22,985 nucleotides of DNA from a virus. The first letter of the stretch is position 1; each line of letters begins with the position of its first letter. The notes below the pieces were generated by a model. That model was not told the DNA's origin. It saw only the letters and a program-made list of their open reading frames with translations, and did not search any database. Below, piece after piece: positions 4,139 to 20,161 of this stretch. Both the position numbers and the translations under genes were made by a program. Location: IMG/VR virus record IMGVR_UViG_3300043119_000229, positions 1-22,985 of that record. One strand, 5' to 3'.

Positions 4139-4596
4139 AGCGGTGCTACACCTTCAAATGTCTTGATGTCCCAACGACTCACAGGGTGAGCGCTGAACTC
4201 TTCGGGGATGCCGTCAATGTCCCACTCGGGAATTGGTTCAATGCCGCGCCACCAGTTCAACTGGCTGGCAATCTTGCTGGTGGTGTTCCACATCCACAAG
4301 TACCCAAGGTGCTTGCTGAACGGGGCATAGCCACCATTCGGTGCGTTGCGAAGGATAGACTGGCAGGTAGCCCACATACGGGCCTTGTTGACCGTCTCGT
4401 CAAACACAAGGGTGGTGCTCAGGTCTACGACCCAACGCCACTCACAGCTTTCTGGCTTGACATCTGGAGGGATAGCAACGCATGGCCCAACATTCAACTC
4501 GCCAACAAGACTGACAAACACCACAGTGCTTGGCTTCTTGCCGGACAGACGCATGTTCCAAATCTCACGGGCTGTTGGCAACATTACTTTTGACAT
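4135..4596 (-). CDS. Hypothetical protein between initiator and helicase
   Basis: A 153-aa protein, beginning MSKVMLPTAREIWNMR, that I cannot assign. Trp-rich segments stand out (CEWRWVVDLSTTLVFDE, YLWMWNTTSKIASQLNWWRG, PVSRWDIKTF). There is no P-loop, zinc site or membrane helix. The ATG at 4596-4594 shares one base with the stop of the initiator gene (TGATG); a GTG one codon earlier is also possible. A G-rich stretch just upstream could serve as the ribosome binding site. It sits where a helicase loader or initiator partner gene often lies, so a role in replisome assembly is possible, but the sequence shows no AAA+ loader motifs. Confidence 0.65.
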   Translation of the reverse strand: MSKVMLPTAREIWNMRLSGKKPSTVVFVSLVGELNVGPCVAIPPDVKPESCEWRWVVDLSTTLVFDETVNKARMWATCQSILRNAPNGGYAPFSKHLGYLWMWNTTSKIASQLNWWRGIEPIPEWDIDGIPEEFSAHPVSRWDIKTFEGVAPL

Positions 4597-5366
4597 CACA
4601 TCACCCCCGCAAATGTGTCGTCTTCCCCTGTCTTGGGGATGCCATCTTTCCAGCGTTGCTGATTGATGTAGGTCATGGGTGCTGGCTCAAAACCTCGCTT
4701 CCAGTCATCCGTCTCTTTCATAAATCGCAAGTGGGCAAGGATTTCGTCAGCCTCTTTCGCCAACTCACGAGTCACCCATTTTTTCTGTATGGCAATCATC
4801 CCCGCCTTGCGAGGGCCAGAAGGCCAAGTCTTCCAGAACTCAGCGCATCCGTGCATGTCATCAAACGCAACATCAATCTGTTCGACACCATCCCCCTCTG
4901 GGGGGTTAGGGGGGTTAGAAGATGAAGATGAAGATGAAGATGAAGGGGTTGGTTTTTGCTTATCCTTCTTTTGAACCTTGGGCTTATCCTTGAGGTTAAC
5001 CTTGTGGTTATCCTTCAAGTTGGGGTTGCCACCTAGCTTGCCGCCCGCAGCCCGCACTGCTCTTAGGTTCTCGTCTCGAATCATGCGGCGAGAAAAGATT
5101 GCGCCCTCTTCATCGACCTCATAGACTCCAGCCTCTTCGAGTTCTTCGAGCCAACCTTCGACCTCTTGCGTGGTTAACCCACACATGCGAGCAAGGTTGG
5201 GTGGAAGGATAACCTTGTCACCAACCTTCAAGTAACCATAGGGGTTGCCTTCGTGCATGTAACAAATCATGTCAATCCACAGGCCACGAGCGCCAGTAGA
5301 GCAAGACCGAAGCGCGGTGTCGCGCAACCAGTCGGATGGGTAGAACTGAAATGATGGGCGCTTCAT
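4596..5366 (-). CDS. Phage replication initiator-like protein (winged helix, lambda O-like layout)
   Basis: A 256-aa protein in three parts. Residues 1-110 form a winged-helix type domain seen in many phage replisome organisers: YPSDWLRDTALRSCSTGARG, WIDMICYMHE, LARMCGLTTQEVEGWLEELE, then SRRMIRDE. A low-complexity linker (about 111-160) carries a four-residue Lys/Asn/Asp repeat, a run of nine serines and Pro/Gly. The C-terminal domain (about 175-250; EFWKTWPSGPRKAGM, HLRFMKETDDWKRGF, PMTYINQQRW) resembles the C-terminal region of phage O/DnaD-like proteins that contact the helicase. It is the first gene of the leftward operon, two genes before the helicase. The ribosome binding site (GGTTGG) is weak. 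The linker DNA contains tandem 12-bp repeats, as lambda O carries ori. Confidence 0.72.
   Translation of the reverse strand: MKRPSFQFYPSDWLRDTALRSCSTGARGLWIDMICYMHEGNPYGYLKVGDKVILPPNLARMCGLTTQEVEGWLEELEEAGVYEVDEEGAIFSRRMIRDENLRAVRAAGGKLGGNPNLKDNHKVNLKDKPKVQKKDKQKPTPSSSSSSSSSNPPNPPEGDGVEQIDVAFDDMHGCAEFWKTWPSGPRKAGMIAIQKKWVTRELAKEADEILAHLRFMKETDDWKRGFEPAPMTYINQQRWKDGIPKTGEDDTFAGVM
4900..4944. repeat. Short tandem repeats in the initiator linker (G6TTA x2 and GAAGAT x4.5)
   Basis: Two perfect copies of GGGGGGTTA (4900-4917) are followed directly by four and a half copies of GAAGAT (4918-4944). On the coding (minus) strand they encode an NPPNPP segment and the nine-serine run of the initiator linker. 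Such runs are prone to slippage, so linker length may vary between related phages. The strand bias (purine-rich plus strand) adjoining the 12-bp repeats could also ease melting at an origin, which is inference. Confidence 0.8.
4956..5015. repeat. Five tandem 12-bp repeats, candidate origin iterons
   Basis: Reading the minus strand from 5015, five consecutive 12-bp units begin with AAGGAT or AAGGTT: AAGGATAACCAC, AAGGTTAACCTC, AAGGATAAGCCC, AAGGTTCAAAAG, AAGGATAAGCAA. The first seven bases are the best conserved. They lie in the low-complexity linker of the initiator gene. A further copy, AAGGATAACC, occurs on the plus strand at 5205-5214, also within this gene. Lambda-type phages place origin iterons inside the initiator gene O, so an origin function is plausible. 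A simple coding repeat of a Lys-rich linker is the alternative. Confidence 0.6.
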
Positions 5367-5407
5367 GCTGCCAACCAGTTCTTCGTGTGTGTCATAAAAG
5401 CCTTACG

Positions 5408-5484
5408 AAAAAAGCCATAGACGGGACTCTCGCCTTTCGGCGTTGGCGGACTGGGTAACACCAGCAGAGTCCCGACTATGGCTT
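5408..5484 (-). ncRNA. Structured RNA with three-way junction and U-tail (C4-antisense-like or attenuator)
   Basis: On the minus strand a 19-nt arm (5484-5466, AAGCCATAGTCGGGACTCT) pairs with 5430-5412 at 18 of 19 positions. Inside are two hairpins: CUGG-UGUUAC-CCAG (5464-5451) and CGCC-GAAA-GGCG (5442-5431), the latter closed by a GNRA tetraloop, joined by UCCGCCAA. The closing stem runs into six U residues (5413-5408). The GNRA loop exists only on the minus strand, which sets the orientation. It lies on the leftward transcript about 45 bases before the initiator start. It could be a free regulatory RNA with its own terminator, or an attenuator of the replication operon. The layout reminds me of phage C4 antisense RNAs (P1/P22 immI); this is from memory and unverified. 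Confidence 0.6.
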
Positions 5485-5615
5485 GCTACAAAACGCCGCC
5501 AAGCGTTGCTTCCTCCTTTCAACCCAAAGGGGACGGGCTTCACCTCGTATGAAAGGAACAAAGTTCAGAGGTTTTCCAGTGCAGATAGCGAGTAAGCACC
5601 TGCCCGTCACCAACA

Positions 5616-5644
5616 AGTATCTTTGTGTCTTGATACTGTGTCAA
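5616..5644 (-). promoter_or_regulatory. Leftward early promoter overlapping a 22-bp palindrome
   Basis: On the minus strand a perfect -35 TTGACA (5644-5639) is followed after 17 bases by GATACT (5621-5616; 4 of 6 matches to TATAAT), giving a start near 5609. The -10 element is one arm of the inverted repeat AGTATC-N10-GATACT (5616-5637), whose other arm lies in the spacer, a typical place for a repressor operator. It would drive the structured leader and the replication operon. Repression by the adjacent CI-like protein is inferred. Confidence 0.6.
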
Positions 5645-5699
5645 TCAAATATCCTTGTGTTTTAGTGGGAGATAGGGGAAAGTTAGGTAACACATGTAT

Positions 5700-5766
5700 T
5701 TGACTGAATAACAAGGACGAGTTAGTATTTGTCAGGTATTGTGACAATTAGTTAAAGAAAGTATTA
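5700..5766 (+). promoter_or_regulatory. Candidate rightward repressor promoters and operator
   Basis: Two possible promoters for the repressor gene overlap here: TTGACT (5700-5705) with TAGTAT (5723-5728), spacing 17, and TTGTGA (5740-5745) with TATTAC (5763-5768), spacing 17. An inverted repeat TTGTCA-N7-TGACAA (5729-5747) covers the -10 of the first and the -35 of the second, so a protein bound there could autoregulate the repressor. Which promoter is used cannot be decided from sequence alone. Confidence 0.4.
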
Positions 5767-10482: not shown

Positions 10483-10686
10483 ATGCGTGAAGTAATCACC
10501 CTACCCGAAGTCGCCAAGATGCTTGGTATCAATCCAGAGACGGCTCGCCGATGGGCAGTGAGCGGGAAGATTCCCGTTTTCCGCTACAACGGAGCTGGTC
10601 GCTGGCGTGCATTCCGCGACGAGATTGACAAGTTTTTGTCGGCACAGCAAAATGCTAGCTCGACTGGGCAAGTCGGTAGCGCGTAA
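10483..10686 (+). CDS. Excisionase-type HTH protein (Xis-like)
   Basis: A 67-aa protein with a MerR/excisionase-type winged HTH: VITLPEVAKMLGINPETARR, WAVSGKIPVFRYNG, GRWRAFRDEIDKFL. This is the helix-turn-helix_17 pattern of recombination directionality factors and small phage regulators. It lies 25 bp upstream of the integrase gene on the same strand, the usual position of xis, and has TAAGGAAG before its ATG. The expected role is to bend DNA near attachment sites and push integrase toward excision. A purely regulatory role on int is an alternative. Confidence 0.78.
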   Translation: MREVITLPEVAKMLGINPETARRWAVSGKIPVFRYNGAGRWRAFRDEIDKFLSAQQNASSTGQVGSA

Positions 10687-10711
10687 TAGTGAATCAAGAA
10701 AGGAACACACT

Positions 10712-11776
10712 ATGGCGCTATACAGAAGAGGTAAATCGAAAATCTGGTATCTGAAAATTACCAGACCCGATGGTTCTCAACACCGGGCATCAACCGGGAC
10801 AGAGAACAAGCAGTTGGCAACAGAGCTGCACGACAAGTTGAAAGCAGAGATGTGGGAGCACAGTCGTCTGGGTATCAAACCCAACGTGCTCTTCACAGAA
10901 GTGGTGAAGATGTTCTTAGAGGACAAGGGAACCAAACGCAAAGGCTCAACACTTGACGGGTATGTGCTGTTGCTCGATTGGTGGTGCGAGCAGTTCAAGG
11001 GTTTAAATGTGCGAGACATTACCCAAGACCTGATTGTGCGAACAATCAAAAAGAAAGAGCGCGACACATCAGGCGCAACTTGCAACCGCTACCTTGCGGC
11101 ACTGCGAGCCACCCTGAGACTAGCGCACTTGAAGTATCAGTTGACCGAAGTGCTGCCCAAGTTCTTCATGTACGACGAGCCGAGAGAGCGTGTACGTTTT
11201 CTCAAGCCCGATGAAATTGCTAGGTTGTTAGAAGTGTTGCCTCCTCACCTCAGTGACATGGCCGCCTTCTCTCTGGCAACAGGGTTACGGCAAGCGAACG
11301 TGTTGCGTTTGAAGTGGCATGAAGTAGACCTTGTGAACAAAGTCATCGTGATTGACGGGGACAAGATGAAAAACGGACAGACCTTTGGTTTGCCACTGCC
11401 ACAAGCAGCCGTTGACATCATCACCCGACAGATTGGCAAGCACCACGAAGCGGTGTTTACCTTTCGCGGCAAGCCTGTGAAGTGCATCAGCAACGACACA
11501 TGGAAGGCGTGCATCAAGAGGGCTGGTATCGAGGACTTTCGGTGGCACGATATGCGGCACACATGGGCATCAACGCTGGTTCAAGCCGGTGTTCCTGACA
11601 GTGCGCTGCAAGTGCTAGGGGCTTGGGAGACGCCGGGCATGGTGAAGAAGTACGCTCACCACGCAACAGAGTCTGTCCGGTCACATGCTGAGGTAGTAGA
11701 CGCAGCGATTGGAAATGCGCTGGCTAGGGTTGTTGAGGTTGTCCCAATGCGGGAGAGACTCAGACTGGTCGGCTAA
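10712..11776 (+). CDS. int: Tyrosine-type site-specific integrase
   Basis: A 354-aa protein with a beta-rich arm-binding N terminus (residues 1-50: RRGKSKIWYLKITRPDGSQH), a SAM-like core-binding domain (about 58-150) and the catalytic domain (160-330). The tyrosine-recombinase residues are visible: Arg193 (TGLRQANVL), Lys218 or Lys220 (GDKMKNGQ), His279 and Arg282 (HDMRHTWAS), Trp305 in the H/W position (GAWETPGM) and Tyr314 (VKKYAHH). The ATG at 10712 has AAAGGA upstream; an earlier in-frame ATG would overlap the xis-like gene. The stop lies four bases before the 3' end of a tRNA-Ser gene, pointing to tRNA-targeted integration. All catalytic residues are present, so the enzyme is probably functional. 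Confidence 0.95.
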   Translation: MALYRRGKSKIWYLKITRPDGSQHRASTGTENKQLATELHDKLKAEMWEHSRLGIKPNVLFTEVVKMFLEDKGTKRKGSTLDGYVLLLDWWCEQFKGLNVRDITQDLIVRTIKKKERDTSGATCNRYLAALRATLRLAHLKYQLTEVLPKFFMYDEPRERVRFLKPDEIARLLEVLPPHLSDMAAFSLATGLRQANVLRLKWHEVDLVNKVIVIDGDKMKNGQTFGLPLPQAAVDIITRQIGKHHEAVFTFRGKPVKCISNDTWKACIKRAGIEDFRWHDMRHTWASTLVQAGVPDSALQVLGAWETPGMVKKYAHHATESVRSHAEVVDAAIGNALARVVEVVPMRERLRLVG

Positions 11777-11870
11777 TGTTTGGCGGAAGAGGTGAGATTC
11801 GAACTCACGGAAGGTTTAACCCTTCGATAGTTTTCAAGACTATTGCAATCGACCACTCTGCCACTCTTCC
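11777..11870. other. Probable phage attachment site (attP) within tRNA-Ser
   Basis: Tyrosine integrases of this kind commonly use the 3' half of a tRNA gene as crossover site, and int ends four bases from the tRNA 3' end here. The identity block with the host tRNA could extend from the CCA end at 11781 into the T arm or anticodon arm. Phage genes lie on both sides, so this would be attP rather than attL or attR. The exact core cannot be set without the host sequence. Confidence 0.5.
11781..11870 (-). tRNA. tRNA-Ser (anticodon UGA), complete, CCA encoded
   Basis: On the minus strand the gene folds as a class II tRNA. The acceptor stem is GGAAGAG/CTCTTCC with discriminator G and encoded CCA. 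The D arm contains AGTGGTCGA. The anticodon stem ATAGT/ACTAT encloses CTTGAAA with anticodon TGA. The long variable arm is GAAGG-GTTAAA-CCTTC, and the T arm is GTGAG-TTCGAAT-CTCAC. All arms are intact, so it is probably functional, reading UCN serine codons. Its 3' end faces int at 4 bp distance. A perfect TATAAT lies about 35 bp upstream of its 5' end. Confidence 0.95.
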
Positions 11871-12156: not shown

Positions 12157-12636
12157 ATGGCCAAGAACAAAAAACCCACGAAAAAGTACAAGCCACGGTA
12201 TGCCAAAGACACCTTGCCCGTGGTCTACCGATTCTCGCAAGGCAACGAGACAGACCTGCAACTCATCCCTCACACGTCGCTGTCCAAGTTCAAGGAAGGG
12301 GCCGCCGACTCACAGGATTGGCACACCCTTGCCTCGCGCCTGAACCTTGGCAACACCCTCGCCTACACCCACTATGAGGGCGAGGTGAAGGCCATGATGG
12401 ACAAGGCGACCATAGCCCTTGGCAGCGTGTTTAAGCGCCACGAAAAGACTGGGGTATGGGGTTGCACCGGAGACGAGTTCAACTCGATGGGCGATGGCCT
12501 GAACCTCACAGACCAGATGCAGAAGGAATGCACCCGCCGTGAGCTTCAAGACGCGATGGCCCACGTCATTGAGGTTGCGGCCGTAAACCGAGGCAGGGTT
12601 CCTGCCAAGGTCATGGCTGTCAATCTGGGGCTTTGA
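12157..12636 (+). CDS. Hypothetical phage protein, convergent with late operon
   Basis: A 159-aa protein with a basic N-terminal tail (AKNKKPTKKYKPRYAK) and a largely helical body (LASRLNLGNTLAYTHYEG, VKAMMDKATIALGSVFKRH, ECTRRELQDAMAHVIEVAA). No motif is recognised. The start ATG has only a weak AGAAG upstream. It is the only plus-strand gene beyond the tRNA, and its 3' end overlaps the 3' end of the 2513-aa late gene by 17 bp, so late read-through transcripts would be antisense to it. The basic tail suggests nucleic-acid contact. It may be expressed in the lysogen or early. Confidence 0.75.
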   Translation: MAKNKKPTKKYKPRYAKDTLPVVYRFSQGNETDLQLIPHTSLSKFKEGAADSQDWHTLASRLNLGNTLAYTHYEGEVKAMMDKATIALGSVFKRHEKTGVWGCTGDEFNSMGDGLNLTDQMQKECTRRELQDAMAHVIEVAAVNRGRVPAKVMAVNLGL

Positions 12637-15600
12637 TGCCCCTTGTCTTTGGCACTGAGTAGTAGCGGTCTCCGCGCTTCACAATCTCCGAGCCTCGCTC
12701 CTGCTCACCCTTGTCTGCCAAGTCCCAAGTCTCATGCTTGCGACCCTTGAGAACAATGTAGCTGTCATCCGGCAAGCCGTGCATCTTCTTGTCCTCATCG
12801 CTTGCCATCGTGACCGAACCCCAGTGACCAGCGTTTTCACCAGTTCCGTCTGGGCCTAGGCCAGCAGCCTTGGCTGTTGCGTAGTCATAGTCTGAACTCT
12901 CAGGGTCAAACTTCACCTCGCCGCCATCAGCAAACTCCGGCTTGTTGCGAGAGCGACTGATTCGCATCTCTTCGGCTCGCTTGGCCAACTCAGATTTCAG
13001 GGCGTTCAAGCGGTCAATCTCGATTCGCTTGGCCGCGCCGTCCATCTGTTCGTTCTCCTGAACCATCTTGATGCGCTTGCCCACTTGAGCCAACGTGTCG
13101 GCAGTCTGTGTGTAAGCCTTGCTCAAGGTAATCAGGTCGCGCTTCTCGCTCAACAGTTCAGCAGCCTTGGCTGTCTCGCCAGCATTGAGGTACATGCGAT
13201 AGTCTGACGCAACAGTAGAAATCTCCTTGGCGTTTTCATAGAACGAACTGACGTACTTTGACTGTGACTGCGGCATTGTCTTGACATAGTTGCCAACAAC
13301 AAACAGGTCATCAATCCGCTTGTCTGGAGACTCACCGGGTTTCAGTGGGCTAAGCAAGAAATTACCAGACGCTTGCATCACAGTCCCGACCCAGCCCAGA
13401 TAACCACGAATTGTGTAATCCATCTGGATTGGAGAGAGCTGCATGTTTTCAGCGTTTGCTCCGGTCACAGCAGACACCACCTCAGCACCAATCTGGTTTA
13501 TCTTGGCCAAGCCAATGCCTACGCTGGATGTGCCAGCATTAACGCGATTAGCTTTGGACAGACGCTCCATACCCATTGACTCGATTGGCCTACCAGTAAA
13601 TCCATCCTTGTTGCTGTCCAGTTCAAGGACAGGGCGAAACATTTGGGGAACCGGATTGATGGCCAAGTTGTCGTGCAACAGAGCCAGCAGACGCTTACCA
13701 AACAACTTGCCCTCGACAGTTGGGTCAACAAACTGTTCTGTTGCTCGACCAATCGCAGTACCGATAGCGCCAAGCTCGAACGGCTTTGGAACTCGAACGG
13801 CTGTTTCTGTGCCGGGAATCTTGAACCAATAGAACGAATCCTTGTCCCACTCTTCCCGCTTCTTCCAGTCATCGTCATCCATCTGAGCCAAGTACAGAGA
13901 AAGCTCAACGAGCGTCACAGCGCCGAGAACGATACCAAACTTTGCAGCCTTCTTGCGCTCAGAATCTGTTGGCTCGCCAAACATGACAGAGCGCACGGGG
14001 TCGATACCGTCGCGGCCAATCTTGTAGAGACCTTGCAGTCGAGCGTTGAAATACGGTAGCACTTGGCTTGCCCAGCGAATCGCCTCCCAGCTACCTTGCA
14101 AGCTAAAGTCTTGCAAGTCACGAGCTGCGTATGCTGCATCAAGTGGACTTCCGCCTTGGGCAATCACCTTGTTGTAAAGATTAATGCGGTTTGCATTCTC
14201 CATCGCGTCGCTAATCTCATCGTACTTGTCTTGGTACTTTCCAAACCAAGCCTTTGCCTTTTCTGTTGTAGTCAACACGTTCTGATTGTCTACGCCGGAT
14301 TTGATGATGCGCTTCAATGAGACGCTCTGGTCTCCATCCCCCGCATTGCCCATCGCGAATACGCCGCCAGATGCCAGAGCATCAGCATGGTCGTGCTTGT
14401 ATGAGCGGTAGCCCTCTATCGCGTTTGCAATAGGATTCTTACCGTTGTCAGACAAGGCAAGCGACTGCACAGAATCACGAACCAAGTTGTTAATCTTGAA
14501 TGTTGGCGACAGAGACACAAAGCGCGTCAAGGTTGTTTTGAATGGGCGAGCAATATCAAGGAACCAGTTGCTCGCGCCTACGTTGGCAATTTTATCTAGG
14601 GCCGTCAGAAGAAACTCGTCTTTGACCTCGTAGTGAACGGGCTTGCCTTTCTCCATGACCTTGACCGTGTACTTCAATGGAACAGCGTTGCCACCTTCAT
14701 CCTTGCCAAACTTTTCATCAACCTTTGTTACCTTGTTTACAACGCCAATCTGTTGGGCGTAGTTAAGCGTCTCAACAGCAGCACCGTTCTTCATGCTCGC
14801 CGACATGATGTGAGACCAGTTAAGAAGCACGTTCTCAAGCAGGTCATTCAATGGGCGAGAGCTGCCCTTCAAAGCCTTTGACATGTACTGACCGACGTGA
14901 CCAGATGAGTTCTGCGCAGCCGACAGCGAGCCATCCTCTTCCATCTGGCGATAGAAGGGAACATACCAAACATCTGCTGCAAACTTCTTGTAGCCAGCTT
15001 CATCAATCAGACCTTTGAACTTTGCCAAATCAAGGATAGAACGATTCAGCTCATTCATGCCTTGAAGCGTCTTGATGTAAGTTGCCACGCGAGACTTGCC
15101 ATCCTTCATCGTGCCAAGGTTCAGGCGCTTGAGGTTGGTGATTTCTTCGTCAGTAAAGAAGTTCTCGCGGTCTTGCTTCTTGAGTTCGCCAGCGCGGTTT
15201 GCCGCAATCCACAGCAGGAAGCGGTCAACCTCTGGGCCGACTGGCTCAAGAATCTTTTTCAAGCTATCTGTTCCCTTTTTCAACTGGAGAACACCGCCGA
15301 CATCTTTGACTTGGCCGTAATGAAGGACAGTCTTCAAAGCCCCGTCTTGCAAACCGTTGGACATGCGAACCATCTTGTAGACAGTTTCATTGATGTCTCG
15401 AATTGGACGGTACTTATCGAACAGACCCTGAACAATATGCTTACCGAAGTTTGCGCGCAGTGAGTTAATCCGCTCGCTGACTGTTGGAGGACTGACGTGA
15501 CCCTTGGCCATAGCCATTGCACGCACGTTAGCGGGAACATCAGCAAACTGAGCCTCGTATTCACGGGCGCGGAACAGTGGAAGGCCATCCTCCTCGACGG

Positions 15601-18600
15601 CCCTTTGCAGCTTTTCAGGAATGACGAAGCCAAGCTGTTGGCCAGTGCCTTCAATGGTCATTATCTCAACCTTGCCGTCAAAGCCTTTGAGGACTTCTTT
15701 CGCGACAGATGGAACCTTTGTGTCGTAGTAGTAGGCGAGACCATCATCAGCATCGCTGCCATATCGCTCAACCTGCTGCTCGCCGCGCGTCCAAGCAATC
15801 TTGTTGATGCCAGACTTTTGGGCGTAAGCAATCGCACGCTTCAATAGTAGAGCAGTCCATGCTTCGCTATTGTTCGTGAATGGCGCGTCCGGCACATCTG
15901 TTGGGACGTGCTGTTTGATTTTGTTGGCTGCGGCGGTGGTTGCGTCAAGCTCCTCTTTGAGCTTTGCTTTTTCTTCCGAACTCGCTGCCGCCGCAATCTT
16001 TTCCTTAATGGAGGAGATTGATTCCATCATCTCGTTGTACTTGGCACGCTTGCGCTTGTTCTGCTGGCGCTGACTTTGCAGCTCCTCAATGAACAGAACT
16101 TTATCGCCGCGCGTGTCTTCGCGTGTGTTCATTCGCAACCAGCCAATAGCCTTGCCGCCAGACACATCGCCGTAGTGAATGATGTCCTTTTGCGCGTATG
16201 GCGCAACAGTCGGGTCAAGCAGCACCAACTCTGTGTAGTTCTTGCCGCCCTTCAACACAAGGTTGTGGCCTTCGTCGCCATGCTTTGTCTTGATTGATTT
16301 AATGGACTGCTGGTAGTCGCGGACAAAATTCTTCATGCCAATCGAATGGCTAATGATTGACTTCATCTCCTCTTCGTCCATAAAGGCAACACTTGCCTCG
16401 GTGTCGTCAATGTCGCCATTGTCAATTAAGTCGTAGATTGCTTGGCGCATGTCGTCCTGAGTTGGCACTTCGCTGACTTCGCTAAGGATGATGTCGTTCA
16501 GGTTTACCTTATTGCCGCCAATAAAGTTGAGCACCTGCTCCTTGGTGACTTTGCCATCTTGCATATCAAGCCAGTCGTTGATGCCGACCCACTTAATCTC
16601 TGCCGCACGCACTCCCATCTTTGGCGCGTTACTTGCAAGCCAAGCCTTCCACTGTTCTGCTGGCATGTTCTCTTGCTTTGCGCCACGGAATGCACGCTCA
16701 AGCGCAGAGTAAAAAGTTGGAGTGCCAGCGCGCGCAGCCATCGCATCTTTAACAGATTTGGCAGCGGCCTCTGTTCCACCAGCGCCCATCTCGCCCTTGC
16801 CTTCAATGACATAGGCGCGAGCGTTGGCAACAATCTGGCGAACTTCTTCGTCTGACACGGACTTGATGCCGAACTTGTCGCGCAACCATGCACGCACAGC
16901 TTCGTACAACTTGCGAAGCGCAGACTTCTCCGCGACCTTCAAGTCGGCTGGGTCTTTCTCGGCCATGTCAGCAAGAACTTCCTCCACTGCAATAGCCTTG
17001 CCCAATCCTTCTTTTATGTCCATCGCATCAGCGAGCTTGCGAACTTCTGAGTTGCCGTTGTAGATGCTCATCATCACGTCAGCATGGTTCTCACCAAATA
17101 GTGAGCGCATACCGAAGTGACCTGTGATTTCGTGGGCCACAGTCAGGATTGCATCCTCTGCGTTGTGCATGTTTCCAGCAACCAGCCAGACCTTGTTGTT
17201 GTAGAACAGACCGGGGACTTTGTTGTCCATGCCCTTCTTCTTGATGGTGGTTAGGGCGCGGATTGGCAAGTCGTCTTCTGTTTCGACAACTTTGATTTCT
17301 GGCAAGCGCTTCCACTTGGAAACCATGTCCTCAACAATCTTGTCCACGGCAGCCTTAGACATGCCGGTGTCGCCAACGGTGGTGACACGGAACACGCCGT
17401 CCATGCTGGCCTTGTTGCGATTCTCTTCTGCGAGTGCGTTGACTCGTTTTGCACGAGCGTCACGCATCACGCTGCGAACGAGTTGGTCGTGGTACTCGGC
17501 AGTGCTAAATGGCTTCTCGCCATCTTCCGGCGCGTAGGCGTTAATCCAATCGCCCTGCGCTTGCTTGGGCAACTTGTTGAACGGGATGTGTGCCACCACG
17601 CCATCATCGTTGTCTTCCCAGCTATCAATCGCTTCGAGCTTGATTTGCTTGGCGTTTGGCTTCTCTTCCTTGGCCTTTGGTTCTGGCTTTGCTTTAGGCT
17701 CAGGCTTGGCTTCAACCTTCTGTTCAACAGACGTGTCGATTTCAGGCTCGACTTTCGACACAACAGGCGCTGGCTTTTCTTCCTTCACTTGCTTCGCCTC
17801 TTCATCAACAGCCGCTTTGCGCTCGCTGATTGCAGCAGCAACCGGCTTCACCTCTGTTGTTGTGTCAGCAACCGCAGGAATATTCTCGACGTTTTCTTGC
17901 GAGACGACTTGCTCGGTGATGACCTCGTTGGTTTTGTTGTCGCGCTGTTGCGCCACCACATCGGCTGGCTTAACCTGCTCTGTTGCAGTCGGCTCAACAT
18001 AGCCAAGGGTTTCACCCATCGCCTGTTTAAAGCCAACCTTCTTGATGCGCTTTTGAACCTTCGCGCCAATGCCCTTGTCTTTCGAGACGACAACAGACTC
18101 AGCGCCTGTCTCTGGGTCTTTGACCGTAACCTTGGTCAAGCCTTTGGTGTTGAGGTTTTTAGACTCTTGCTTGCCAACGACAGCGGCTGGCTTGCGGCCA
18201 TCTGCCACAGCGTCAACCTGAGCTTGCACCTGACTTGCTGATTCCGGCTGGAACCCAGCACTGTTCACTGCGACTGCACCGTCTGGTGTTTTCACAGTCT
18301 GCATGTCGCTTGCTGTTTGGCTCTGTTGCTTCTCGCGACTTTCGATGAAGTAGAACGAGCCACCGCCAGCTTCTTTGGAGCGCTTGCCCTGACGAATCTG
18401 GAACTCAGCATCGTCAACACTTTCAGCAAAGCCGCCTTCACGCTTGCCGGTCTCCTTGTTCACGGGGCCGTACAAGAATGTCTCTGCCAGTTTGGGAGAG
18501 ACGAAGCTGTTGCTGACCGCCTTGCCTTCGATTTGCAATGGGATTGCTTGCCAACCGGCTTGGCTCGACACCATGTCTTCTGGCGACATTGCAACCGTAC

Positions 18601-20161
18601 TGCCCTCTTGATTGAGTAGCGCTGGCTTAGCGTCTCCTTCGAGAGTCTTGGTCTCTTCGTTGGGTGTGACAGATGAGCGCTGAATTACCGGCGCATTTGC
18701 GCCAGTGCCAACACCAATGCTGGTGGATGCGGTGTCGCCGAATGCGGCTTGCACATCCTCGCCACGCTCTTTGCGTGTTTTCTCTTGCTCTTCTGCGCTC
18801 TTGATGTCCAGCTCTGCAAGCTGACGGTCAAGTTTGCCAATCTGTGTGGCGAGACCTTGGAAGCGTGGGTCGTCCGCGCTCTCGATGCCAGCGCCCTGAA
18901 TGATTGCGGAGGTGCGTTCATCCTGCATCATCGCATCAAAGATTTGCTGACGAGCGGCAGCACCCTCTTCGCGCAGGTCTGTGAGGATTTTCTCTTTCTG
19001 CTCTGGAGTTGCCTCTTCGAACATCTTTTGCAATGCGAGCTGGCCGCCTTTGAAGCCGCCGCCAGCCAAGCCGCCAATGGCAACAGACTCAGAGAACCCT
19101 TCGCCGACGGGTTTGTAGCCCAGCTTGTTGGTCAACAGGCTCTGCGTGCCTTCTTCCCCACCCTCTGTCAGGAAGGTCATGCCAATCTGTTTCGCAGCGC
19201 CACCGCTGTCAGCAAACAGACCGACCTTGTTCATTGCAAAGTTCAGCGGCAGGTTGACCATGTAGGCTTTCCAAGCCTGTTCGTTGGCGTGCTCCTTGTT
19301 GCCAGTCTCAGACATTGCCTTTTCGAATGTCTCTTGAGCAACACCCGCCGACTCCATCAGGGCGGCTAAGCCAGCACCACCCGCGCGCGCGGCAGCAACG
19401 CCAGCGCCAGCCAACTGCAAGCCCTTCACTGCGCCAGCACCGGGAGCCACGAAAGCCAACATGGAGCCAACAGCACCAGACAGCTTCTGTGCGGTGTCTT
19501 GTTCGCGTGGAGTCAAAGCCTGAGCTTCACGTTTGCCAGCCTGAGCCAAGCTGCGGATTGAGTCAGAACCAACAGAGTCGCCAACCCATTCAAGCGTGCC
19601 AGACACAGCACTGCCAAAACCGGCAGCAGCGGAGTCAAACATCTTCATGGCGTAGCCACGGTCTTTTGAATCTGTTCCCAGCTCAACACGACGCTTGGCC
19701 ACGAGAGCATTTTGCTCAGCCTCTTCTGCGTTGTACTGAGCGAGACCTTGCTGGTCTACCTTGGCGGCCTCTGGTTTGTTCTCGCCAAATGCCTTGGTGA
19801 TTCCAGTGTCAACAGCCTCGCCGATGCGCGACAACATGCCGGGCTTCTTCTCTGGAGTCAAGTCTGCGAACAGTGGCTGGTACGCGATACCGCCTTCGGC
19901 TTGCTTTGGCTGGGCCATCTGGGACTCAGGCTTTGAAGACAGGTCGCCAAACAAGGGTTGGTACGAGATTACCGCTGGCTGCTCCTTGCTTGGTGCAGCA
20001 ACAGATGGGCGCTTCTCTTCAACAGGACGACCAAGACGCAGCTCGGCTGCGCGTTGGTTCACCTGTGTATTTGCTTCGTTGAAGGTCTTGTAAATTGAAG
20101 ATGGGTTCGAGCTACCCAAGTTCAGTTCATCATCTTCCAAACCTAGGATTCCGGTACTCAT
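12620..20161 (-). CDS. Giant polyvalent internal virion protein with metallopeptidase-like motif (T7 gp16-like position)
   Basis: A 2513-aa protein, started at ATG 20161 with AAGGAG nine bases upstream. The N terminus (1-110) carries a duplicated YQPLFGDL/YQPLFADL motif. Gly/Ala-rich hydrophobic helices lie near 225-265, and a Lys/Pro/Glu-rich linker near 775-840. Residues 1000-1020 hold AHEITGHFGMR (His1010, Glu1011, His1015), the HExxGH form of phage polyvalent metallopeptidases. About 1150-1500 (EELQSQRQQ, IAWTRGEQQVERYG) matches a domain common in large polyvalent proteins, and 1560-2440 resembles LPD38-type internal virion proteins (FKINNLVRDS, DFSLQGSWEAIRWASQVLPY), with a hydrophobic helix near 2077-2095. 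The last 75 residues form a small domain with GRKHETWD. By position and content it is probably ejected into the host with the DNA. Peptidase activity is inferred. Confidence 0.85.
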   Translation of the reverse strand: MSTGILGLEDDELNLGSSNPSSIYKTFNEANTQVNQRAAELRLGRPVEEKRPSVAAPSKEQPAVISYQPLFGDLSSKPESQMAQPKQAEGGIAYQPLFADLTPEKKPGMLSRIGEAVDTGITKAFGENKPEAAKVDQQGLAQYNAEEAEQNALVAKRRVELGTDSKDRGYAMKMFDSAAAGFGSAVSGTLEWVGDSVGSDSIRSLAQAGKREAQALTPREQDTAQKLSGAVGSMLAFVAPGAGAVKGLQLAGAGVAAARAGGAGLAALMESAGVAQETFEKAMSETGNKEHANEQAWKAYMVNLPLNFAMNKVGLFADSGGAAKQIGMTFLTEGGEEGTQSLLTNKLGYKPVGEGFSESVAIGGLAGGGFKGGQLALQKMFEEATPEQKEKILTDLREEGAAARQQIFDAMMQDERTSAIIQGAGIESADDPRFQGLATQIGKLDRQLAELDIKSAEEQEKTRKERGEDVQAAFGDTASTSIGVGTGANAPVIQRSSVTPNEETKTLEGDAKPALLNQEGSTVAMSPEDMVSSQAGWQAIPLQIEGKAVSNSFVSPKLAETFLYGPVNKETGKREGGFAESVDDAEFQIRQGKRSKEAGGGSFYFIESREKQQSQTASDMQTVKTPDGAVAVNSAGFQPESASQVQAQVDAVADGRKPAAVVGKQESKNLNTKGLTKVTVKDPETGAESVVVSKDKGIGAKVQKRIKKVGFKQAMGETLGYVEPTATEQVKPADVVAQQRDNKTNEVITEQVVSQENVENIPAVADTTTEVKPVAAAISERKAAVDEEAKQVKEEKPAPVVSKVEPEIDTSVEQKVEAKPEPKAKPEPKAKEEKPNAKQIKLEAIDSWEDNDDGVVAHIPFNKLPKQAQGDWINAYAPEDGEKPFSTAEYHDQLVRSVMRDARAKRVNALAEENRNKASMDGVFRVTTVGDTGMSKAAVDKIVEDMVSKWKRLPEIKVVETEDDLPIRALTTIKKKGMDNKVPGLFYNNKVWLVAGNMHNAEDAILTVAHEITGHFGMRSLFGENHADVMMSIYNGNSEVRKLADAMDIKEGLGKAIAVEEVLADMAEKDPADLKVAEKSALRKLYEAVRAWLRDKFGIKSVSDEEVRQIVANARAYVIEGKGEMGAGGTEAAAKSVKDAMAARAGTPTFYSALERAFRGAKQENMPAEQWKAWLASNAPKMGVRAAEIKWVGINDWLDMQDGKVTKEQVLNFIGGNKVNLNDIILSEVSEVPTQDDMRQAIYDLIDNGDIDDTEASVAFMDEEEMKSIISHSIGMKNFVRDYQQSIKSIKTKHGDEGHNLVLKGGKNYTELVLLDPTVAPYAQKDIIHYGDVSGGKAIGWLRMNTREDTRGDKVLFIEELQSQRQQNKRKRAKYNEMMESISSIKEKIAAAASSEEKAKLKEELDATTAAANKIKQHVPTDVPDAPFTNNSEAWTALLLKRAIAYAQKSGINKIAWTRGEQQVERYGSDADDGLAYYYDTKVPSVAKEVLKGFDGKVEIMTIEGTGQQLGFVIPEKLQRAVEEDGLPLFRAREYEAQFADVPANVRAMAMAKGHVSPPTVSERINSLRANFGKHIVQGLFDKYRPIRDINETVYKMVRMSNGLQDGALKTVLHYGQVKDVGGVLQLKKGTDSLKKILEPVGPEVDRFLLWIAANRAGELKKQDRENFFTDEEITNLKRLNLGTMKDGKSRVATYIKTLQGMNELNRSILDLAKFKGLIDEAGYKKFAADVWYVPFYRQMEEDGSLSAAQNSSGHVGQYMSKALKGSSRPLNDLLENVLLNWSHIMSASMKNGAAVETLNYAQQIGVVNKVTKVDEKFGKDEGGNAVPLKYTVKVMEKGKPVHYEVKDEFLLTALDKIANVGASNWFLDIARPFKTTLTRFVSLSPTFKINNLVRDSVQSLALSDNGKNPIANAIEGYRSYKHDHADALASGGVFAMGNAGDGDQSVSLKRIIKSGVDNQNVLTTTEKAKAWFGKYQDKYDEISDAMENANRINLYNKVIAQGGSPLDAAYAARDLQDFSLQGSWEAIRWASQVLPYFNARLQGLYKIGRDGIDPVRSVMFGEPTDSERKKAAKFGIVLGAVTLVELSLYLAQMDDDDWKKREEWDKDSFYWFKIPGTETAVRVPKPFELGAIGTAIGRATEQFVDPTVEGKLFGKRLLALLHDNLAINPVPQMFRPVLELDSNKDGFTGRPIESMGMERLSKANRVNAGTSSVGIGLAKINQIGAEVVSAVTGANAENMQLSPIQMDYTIRGYLGWVGTVMQASGNFLLSPLKPGESPDKRIDDLFVVGNYVKTMPQSQSKYVSSFYENAKEISTVASDYRMYLNAGETAKAAELLSEKRDLITLSKAYTQTADTLAQVGKRIKMVQENEQMDGAAKRIEIDRLNALKSELAKRAEEMRISRSRNKPEFADGGEVKFDPESSDYDYATAKAAGLGPDGTGENAGHWGSVTMASDEDKKMHGLPDDSYIVLKGRKHETWDLADKGEQERGSEIVKRGDRYYSVPKTRGIKAPD

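Follow-up and report, generated by a model that had tools for sequence, protein, structure and literature searches.

The window analysed here, a 22,985-nucleotide stretch of DNA of a freshwater phage, carries on its minus strand, ahead of the replication operon, a compact structured RNA that probably decides whether the replication genes are switched on and is probably an immunity RNA. We read it, with a probability of roughly 0.55, as a rearranged, self-contained small RNA of the C4/CI class that attenuates transcription of the phage's replication operon and would form an RNA-dependent immunity or bistable switch.

Positions 5408-5484 of the minus strand fold into a three-way junction made up of a closing stem, two hairpins and a UUUUUU tail, with a minimum free energy of -43.3 kcal/mol compared to -20.4 +/- 3.0 kcal/mol for dinucleotide-shuffled versions, none of which, out of 200, folds as well (z = -7.6). 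The original prediction had described a closing stem of 19 positions with 18 pairs, two inner hairpins and a U6 tail, and the fold bears out all of these elements, the hairpins being GCUGG/CCAGU and CGCC-GAAA-GGCG on the minus strand. The plus strand also folds (z = -5.9), as expected because the RNA is a near-palindrome; the U tail is confined to the minus strand. Where the prediction fell short was in extent: the unit it delimited at 5408-5484 folds as proposed but lacks a 5' hairpin, P0 (5507-5492), and a GUAGC linker (5489-5485), both of which belong to the RNA because they pair and covary with the junction across relatives. The complete unit thus runs from 5507 to 5408 on the minus strand and consists of P0, the three-way junction and U6 (Table 1).

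Table 1. Elements of the small RNA and its surroundings in the window.
Feature	Positions	Strand	Remarks
Sigma-70-type promoter TTGACA-N17-GATACT, leftward early transcript	5616..5644	-	10/12 matches
P0 hairpin, loop presents a1	5492..5507	-	stem covaries: ACGC/GCGU, UCCC/GGGA, AUCG/CGAU
a1, UUGGCGG, exact complement of a'	5496..5502	-	a1/a' types change together across relatives
b1, GUAGC, directly abuts P1, complements b' with one G-U	5485..5489	-	
P1 5' strand, closing/terminator stem	5466..5484	-	17/19 pairs with two-sided changes
P2 hairpin GCUGG-UGUUAC-CCAGU	5450..5465	-	b' = 5459-5455 in loop
a', CCGCCAA, unpaired junction linker, complements a1	5443..5449	-	
P3 variable hairpin CGCC-GAAA-GGCG	5431..5442	-	placed after a'
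P1 3' strand	5412..5430	-	fold and covariation
U6 tract, intrinsic terminator end of small RNA	5408..5413	-	sequence; T-run also in relatives
Leader ORF MTHTKNWLAA, 10 codons	5363..5395	-	begins 12 nt after U tract; stop overlaps initiator ATG (ATGA)
Replication initiator-like protein, 256 aa, first large operon gene	4596..5366	-	PHROG replication initiation/primosomal families, E 3e-11 to 2e-10

When the window's initiator was used as a protein query, 56 relatives emerged; one of them (L024) has a clear counterpart of the RNA, with compensatory substitutions in the stem and another sequence at the ribosome site. DNA patterns of the conserved core gave 16 matches at first and then at least 120, and a parser combining the core pattern with an upstream TTGGCGG recovered at least 134 members, corresponding to 108 unique sequences. 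A variant pattern added 48 matches with the fold, and in loci fetched through initiator homology a covariance model (R1) picked up 17 copies. In total, more than 150 relatives come from a sample that is biased toward the core patterns and consists of uncultured phages, nearly all of them environmental contigs, plus one Polynucleobacter genome. From 5' to 3', the family comprises P0 with a1 in its loop, a linker ending in b1, P1, P2, a', P3, P1' and a U tract, where P1 is 19 bp long and commonly has a mismatch near its middle, P2 reads GCUGG-U-b'-CCAGU, a' has 7 nt, a1:a' spans 7 bp, b1:b' usually 5-6 bp, and mostly 4-8 T follow P1'.

Scanning bacterial genomes returned 112 matches, nearly all by chance. 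The sole genuine copy found there belongs to Polynucleobacter sp. UK-Kesae-W10, where its surroundings resemble a prophage (L293:3105-3208; G001:C1:1107105-1107208), and a covariance-model search of 186 Polynucleobacter genomes produced no further positive; this copy points to freshwater Burkholderiales as hosts. The scanned plasmids contain no copy of the RNA. Among public phages it occurs in MW202462 and MW202544, two Manatee Spring records of 34.7 kb each. In the former, the strand opposite the RNA is annotated as encoding a hypothetical protein (MW202462.1 33654-33896), probably not a real gene.

Because members of the first alignment (A1, 44 sequences) had been chosen for having CCGCCAA and P2, invariance at these positions proves nothing; independent tests were therefore made. 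In A1, 96.8% of cells are paired, two-sided changes number 344 as opposed to 99 after shuffling, and the covariation score is 0.517 compared to 0.167 for shuffled and at most 0.1 for slid versions, the latter pairing only 32-44%. All five b1:b' pairs show two-sided changes, with up to four Watson-Crick types per column. b1 comes in 20 types among the 108 unique relatives, at least 4 bp abutting P1 are formed in 107 of the 108, and one relative (L133) has no b1:b' match. Six a1 types change exactly in step with a' (UUGGCGG, UUGGCAG, UUGGCCG, UUGACGG, UUGGUGG and UUGGUCG); members found through protein homology contribute the a'/a1 combinations CCGUCAA/UUGACGG, CCACCAA/UUGGUGG and CGACCAA/UUGGUCG. 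P2, invariant in the pattern-selected set, becomes GCACC/GGUGU and GGCGG/CCGUU in the protein-homology members. In a second alignment (A2, 46 sequences) all six helices covary, with a1:a' and P2 paired throughout (100%). Across homologous phages, then, P0, P1, P3, b1:b' and a1:a' covary, and P2 does so in A2.

The relation between a1 and the closing stem also emerged from a blind test, in which the search pattern ignored a1 and left out CCGCCAA-type linkers. All 48 matches with a closing stem carry an exactly complementary a1 (47 UUGGCAG, 1 UUGGCCG), as opposed to none of the 45 matches without one. Note that covariation is identical for cis and trans pairing and cannot separate the two.

Where, then, do a' and b' find their partners? 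The original prediction had pointed to ACUGGUUGGC at the ribosome site of the initiator gene. This would make the RNA a classic C4 antisense, blocking translation by pairing in trans with the initiator's ribosome-binding region, much as C4 of P1 is annotated with a2/b2 before icd/ant; in the window, GUUGGCAG could form 7 of 8 pairs with a' plus flanking bases, and a GUAA occurs near the initiator start. However, neither the complementarity to ACUGGUUGGC nor an a2/b2 pair is conserved in the 108 relatives, the bases concerned are codons of the leader peptide MTHTKNWLAA in the window, and the downstream genes differ. Behind the terminator, the longest runs complementary to a' exceed expectation only slightly, averaging 4.3 compared to 4.0 in shuffled sequence, and there is no excess complementarity to b' (3.75 compared to 3.83 shuffled; 108 unique relatives in both cases). 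The available flanks of relatives contain no second a-b sites beyond expectation (17 seen, 16.1 expected). An apparent surplus of such sites was traced to the RNA's own complementary strand and vanished after masking. The only conserved partners of a' and b' are a1 and b1. Since relatives lack conserved downstream targets, the conserved function does not consist in pairing with the ribosome site of the initiator, and we consider the antisense reading very unlikely. The prediction had also envisaged an attenuation-type switch ahead of the replication genes, and this does fit.

The promoter that had been placed upstream of the RNA is present in the window (Table 1). A sigma-70 promoter scoring at least 6 lies near P0 in 85% of the 108 relatives as opposed to 29% of shuffles, and mostly ends 5-10 nt before P0; the window has no such close promoter, its own lying about 105 nt further upstream, and a divergent S24-type repressor is present. 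With a close promoter and a terminator of its own in most relatives, the RNA resembles a gene of about 105 nt. On the downstream side, the next start codon in relatives mostly follows 8-14 nt behind the U tract. In the window, it is the leader ORF that comes next; its K-N-W motif matches the N-terminus of another class of replication protein (MKIKNW...), so this ORF could represent a remnant or encode a coupling peptide. The initiator-like protein has no match in Pfam, and GATGAA-type repeats at 4918-4945 encode a poly-serine linker within it. The genes behind the RNA in relatives are unrelated in sequence, being largely replication initiators, primosomal proteins, DnaD-like loaders or short ORFs. 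Given so many unrelated families, a shared action at the level of transcription fits better than pairing with the ribosome site of one gene.

Immediately upstream of the RNA, several relatives have a P22-Cro-like gene. The RNA is then located between Cro-like and replication genes, the place that nutR/tR1 occupies in lambda. This location, along with the strong terminator signature, might suit an ordinary early terminator coupled to an antitermination site for a phage or host factor, as in lambda nutR/tR1 or HK022 put, but such an arrangement would leave the exact co-changes of a1:a' and b1:b' and the private promoter unexplained, and we regard it as quite unlikely. We find it hard to credit an RNA of the kind that controls plasmid replication, acting as a primer or copy-number antisense on the origin or on primer formation: although the RNA always adjoins replication genes, it is on the same strand as the gene and leads into it, the ATG following 8-14 nt behind the U tract.

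Temperateness was looked at in two cases, the window and the Polynucleobacter copy. The latter has a CI-like repressor and a loader ATPase nearby and an integrase 17 kb off; a search of this genome for TerL (PF03354) gave no match. In the window, a tRNA-Ser(tga) at 11781-11870 (-), likely the attachment site, directly follows an integrase gene at 10607-11776 (+). The window also encodes a 2513-aa protein (12620-20161, minus strand) whose C-terminal third matches PHROG families of unknown function only.

Folding of the nascent RNA bears on how the two conserved pairings might be used. When transcription has reached the end of P3, the state in which a1b1 pairs with b'a' lies within 0.5 kcal/mol of the minimum free energy in 82 of 107 RNAs and beats the fold with a' left free in 100 of 107, on average by 4.3 kcal/mol. 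The complete RNA favours the terminator (P1) by about 15 kcal/mol. In 107 of 108 relatives b1 abuts P1 without a spacer, so that, judging from geometry, b1:b' should be sterically incompatible with complete closure of the 19-bp P1. It is the nascent folding and this geometry, together with the lack of a conserved a2/b2, that lead us to propose an attenuator. While the leader is being transcribed, the 5' a1 and b1 would find b' and a' in cis once these leave the polymerase; the resulting nested helices would hold the 5' half of P1 within a loop and hinder the terminator, allowing polymerase to enter the replication genes. If, on the other hand, a1 and b1 of the nascent RNA were taken in trans by a' and b' of an earlier copy, such as one supplied by a resident prophage, then P1 would close fully, transcription would stop at the U tract and another copy would be released. 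The RNA would hence favour its own termination and would thereby provide both RNA-based immunity and a bistable switch between lysis and lysogeny, with specificity encoded in the b sequence and, to a lesser degree, in a. P1 is so stable, however, that its formation might ignore the state of a1b1.

The trans step is not required by everything we observe. Complementarity is confined to a single RNA of about 105 nt, so that the device could also work purely in cis, with a1:a' and b1:b' as helices of an intramolecular switch, or as tertiary contacts, that sense a protein, a metabolite or the speed of transcription. Every conserved partner within one transcript, no second a-b site in the flanks and no downstream target are what such a device would lead one to expect. 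Against this, the b code is highly diverse (20 types) within an otherwise conserved RNA, a pattern that suits specificity between individuals better than ligand sensing; in its core, the RNA agrees with C4 of P1, which acts in trans; and many relatives have a private promoter and terminator, as small RNA genes do. We therefore consider a purely cis attenuator rather unlikely, albeit worth keeping in mind, and favour the self-targeting attenuator that acts in trans.

Some homologous initiators lack the family RNA, and here inspection of the leaders is suggestive of other RNAs that follow the same pairing logic, the evidence being suggestive only because segments were chosen by eye. One of these leaders (L051:4850-4992) has the C4 hairpin order and a U6 tail, a linker CUUUCAA facing an upstream UUGAAAG, and b' UUCAUCA facing UGAUGAA. 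UUCUUAC pairs with the hairpin loop GUAAGAA in L004 and L006, and GGUUCUA with the hairpin loop UAGAACC in L023 and L032. Each of these 7-nt matches, in segments picked by eye, has a chance of about 0.7-2% in shuffled upstream sequence. Rfam C4 finds no match in L004, L006, L028 or L051. The leaders of L023, L028, L030 and L032 likewise appear to contain sequence-unrelated RNAs in which an upstream hairpin loop complements the junction or terminator linker.

To our knowledge, RNA-based phage immunity comes from few enterobacterial systems, namely P1/P7, P4 and N15. The pairing logic of P1 and P4 is now seen in many aquatic phages, ahead of varied replication genes and in a compact form that packs target, antisense core and terminator into about 105 nt. 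Going further, we tentatively suggest, as an idea held with less than even confidence, that a large family of self-targeting attenuators absent from Rfam constitutes an RNA-coded immunity of temperate freshwater phages, in which released RNA would promote termination on the leader of an incoming phage and b and a would form a swappable code (20 b1 types among 108 relatives, 6 a types); the C4 fold would serve one purpose in two hairpin orders, with further sequence-unrelated versions before homologous initiators. If true, a joint change of b1 and b' should switch immunity, which makes for a simple, testable code.

How does this family relate to C4 itself? The likeness that the original prediction had drawn holds at the level of parts, the a1/b1-b'/a' design being that of P1 C4, but does not extend to membership of the Rfam family. 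RF01695 has no match at E<=10 in positions 5300-5700 of the window, nor at E<=5 in 20 relatives, and the hairpins come in a permuted order. Conversely, R1 misses the C4 sites of P1, P4 and N15. The best matches of other Rfam families over the RNA were sub-threshold miRNA models, which we rejected as uninformative because such models reward any long hairpin. Given the permuted order, the lack of an Rfam match and the failure of R1 to find C4, we regard the RNA as one that works like C4 and CI without being a member of RF01695. The family is one with C4-like pairing logic in rearranged order that is absent from Rfam; the literature compared consists of open-licence papers, and an earlier description is possible.

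The RNA shares with C4 of P1/P7 the three-way junction, the long closing stem and the GCUGG-b'-CCAGU hairpin, followed by a 7-nt a' linker (CUGUCAA in P1, CCGCCAA here), with complementary a1 and b1 upstream. The core is CTGCTGGT-TTCACTAACG-CCAGTCTGTCAAC in P1 C4, with targets a1 TTGACAG and b1 GTTAGTGC, and CTGCTGGT-N(about 5-8)-CCAGTCYGCCAAC in the family, with a1 TTGGCRG and a matching b1. As in c4-a1b1 (RF03163), the loop of an upstream hairpin carries a1 (UUUGGCAG in the Rfam consensus, UUGGCGG here) and b1 follows; P0 is the analogue of the RF03163 hairpin CGGG[UUUGGCAG]CCCG. Missing, besides the RF01695 match, are the C4 hairpin order and the second target pair a2/b2. In C4, the variable hairpin precedes the b' hairpin and a' comes last, whereas here it follows a', and so similar a core in the other order raises the evolutionary question of whether the junction was permuted or reinvented. 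Moreover, the closing stem here runs into a U tract and doubles as an intrinsic terminator; b1 of P1 is about 66 nt from C4, whereas a1b1 and core here fall within ~105 nt; and P1 has icd/ant downstream, whereas here we find replication genes and no conserved a2/b2. RNase P generates the 5' end of C4 at the foot of its closing stem, where a GGW motif is reported (PMC5320573); at this position the window reads AAGCC.

Like CI, the immunity RNA of satellite phage P4, the RNA lies in the leader of a replication operon and has its target upstream of itself. CI halts the replication genes by premature transcription termination (PMC4825925). The P4 CI and N15 RNAs have the C4 hairpin order and match RF01695 at 74.9 and 78.8 bits, P4 also matching c4-a1b1, and P4 differs further in its additional downstream seqC and in a separate isrK-type terminator that precedes its RNA. 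IsrK of Gifsy-1 (RF01394) offers a parallel for a short terminated RNA and a readthrough mRNA that arise from one promoter, the short acting on the long (PMC4825925), as is envisaged here. Its structure is different, however, its terminator stands before the C4-like part, and it activates rather than represses. Premature termination under RNA control ahead of a replication initiator gene is also found in plasmids such as pT181 and pIP501, where a countertranscript read from the other strand does the regulating; here, this role would fall to the terminated product of the leader's own strand.
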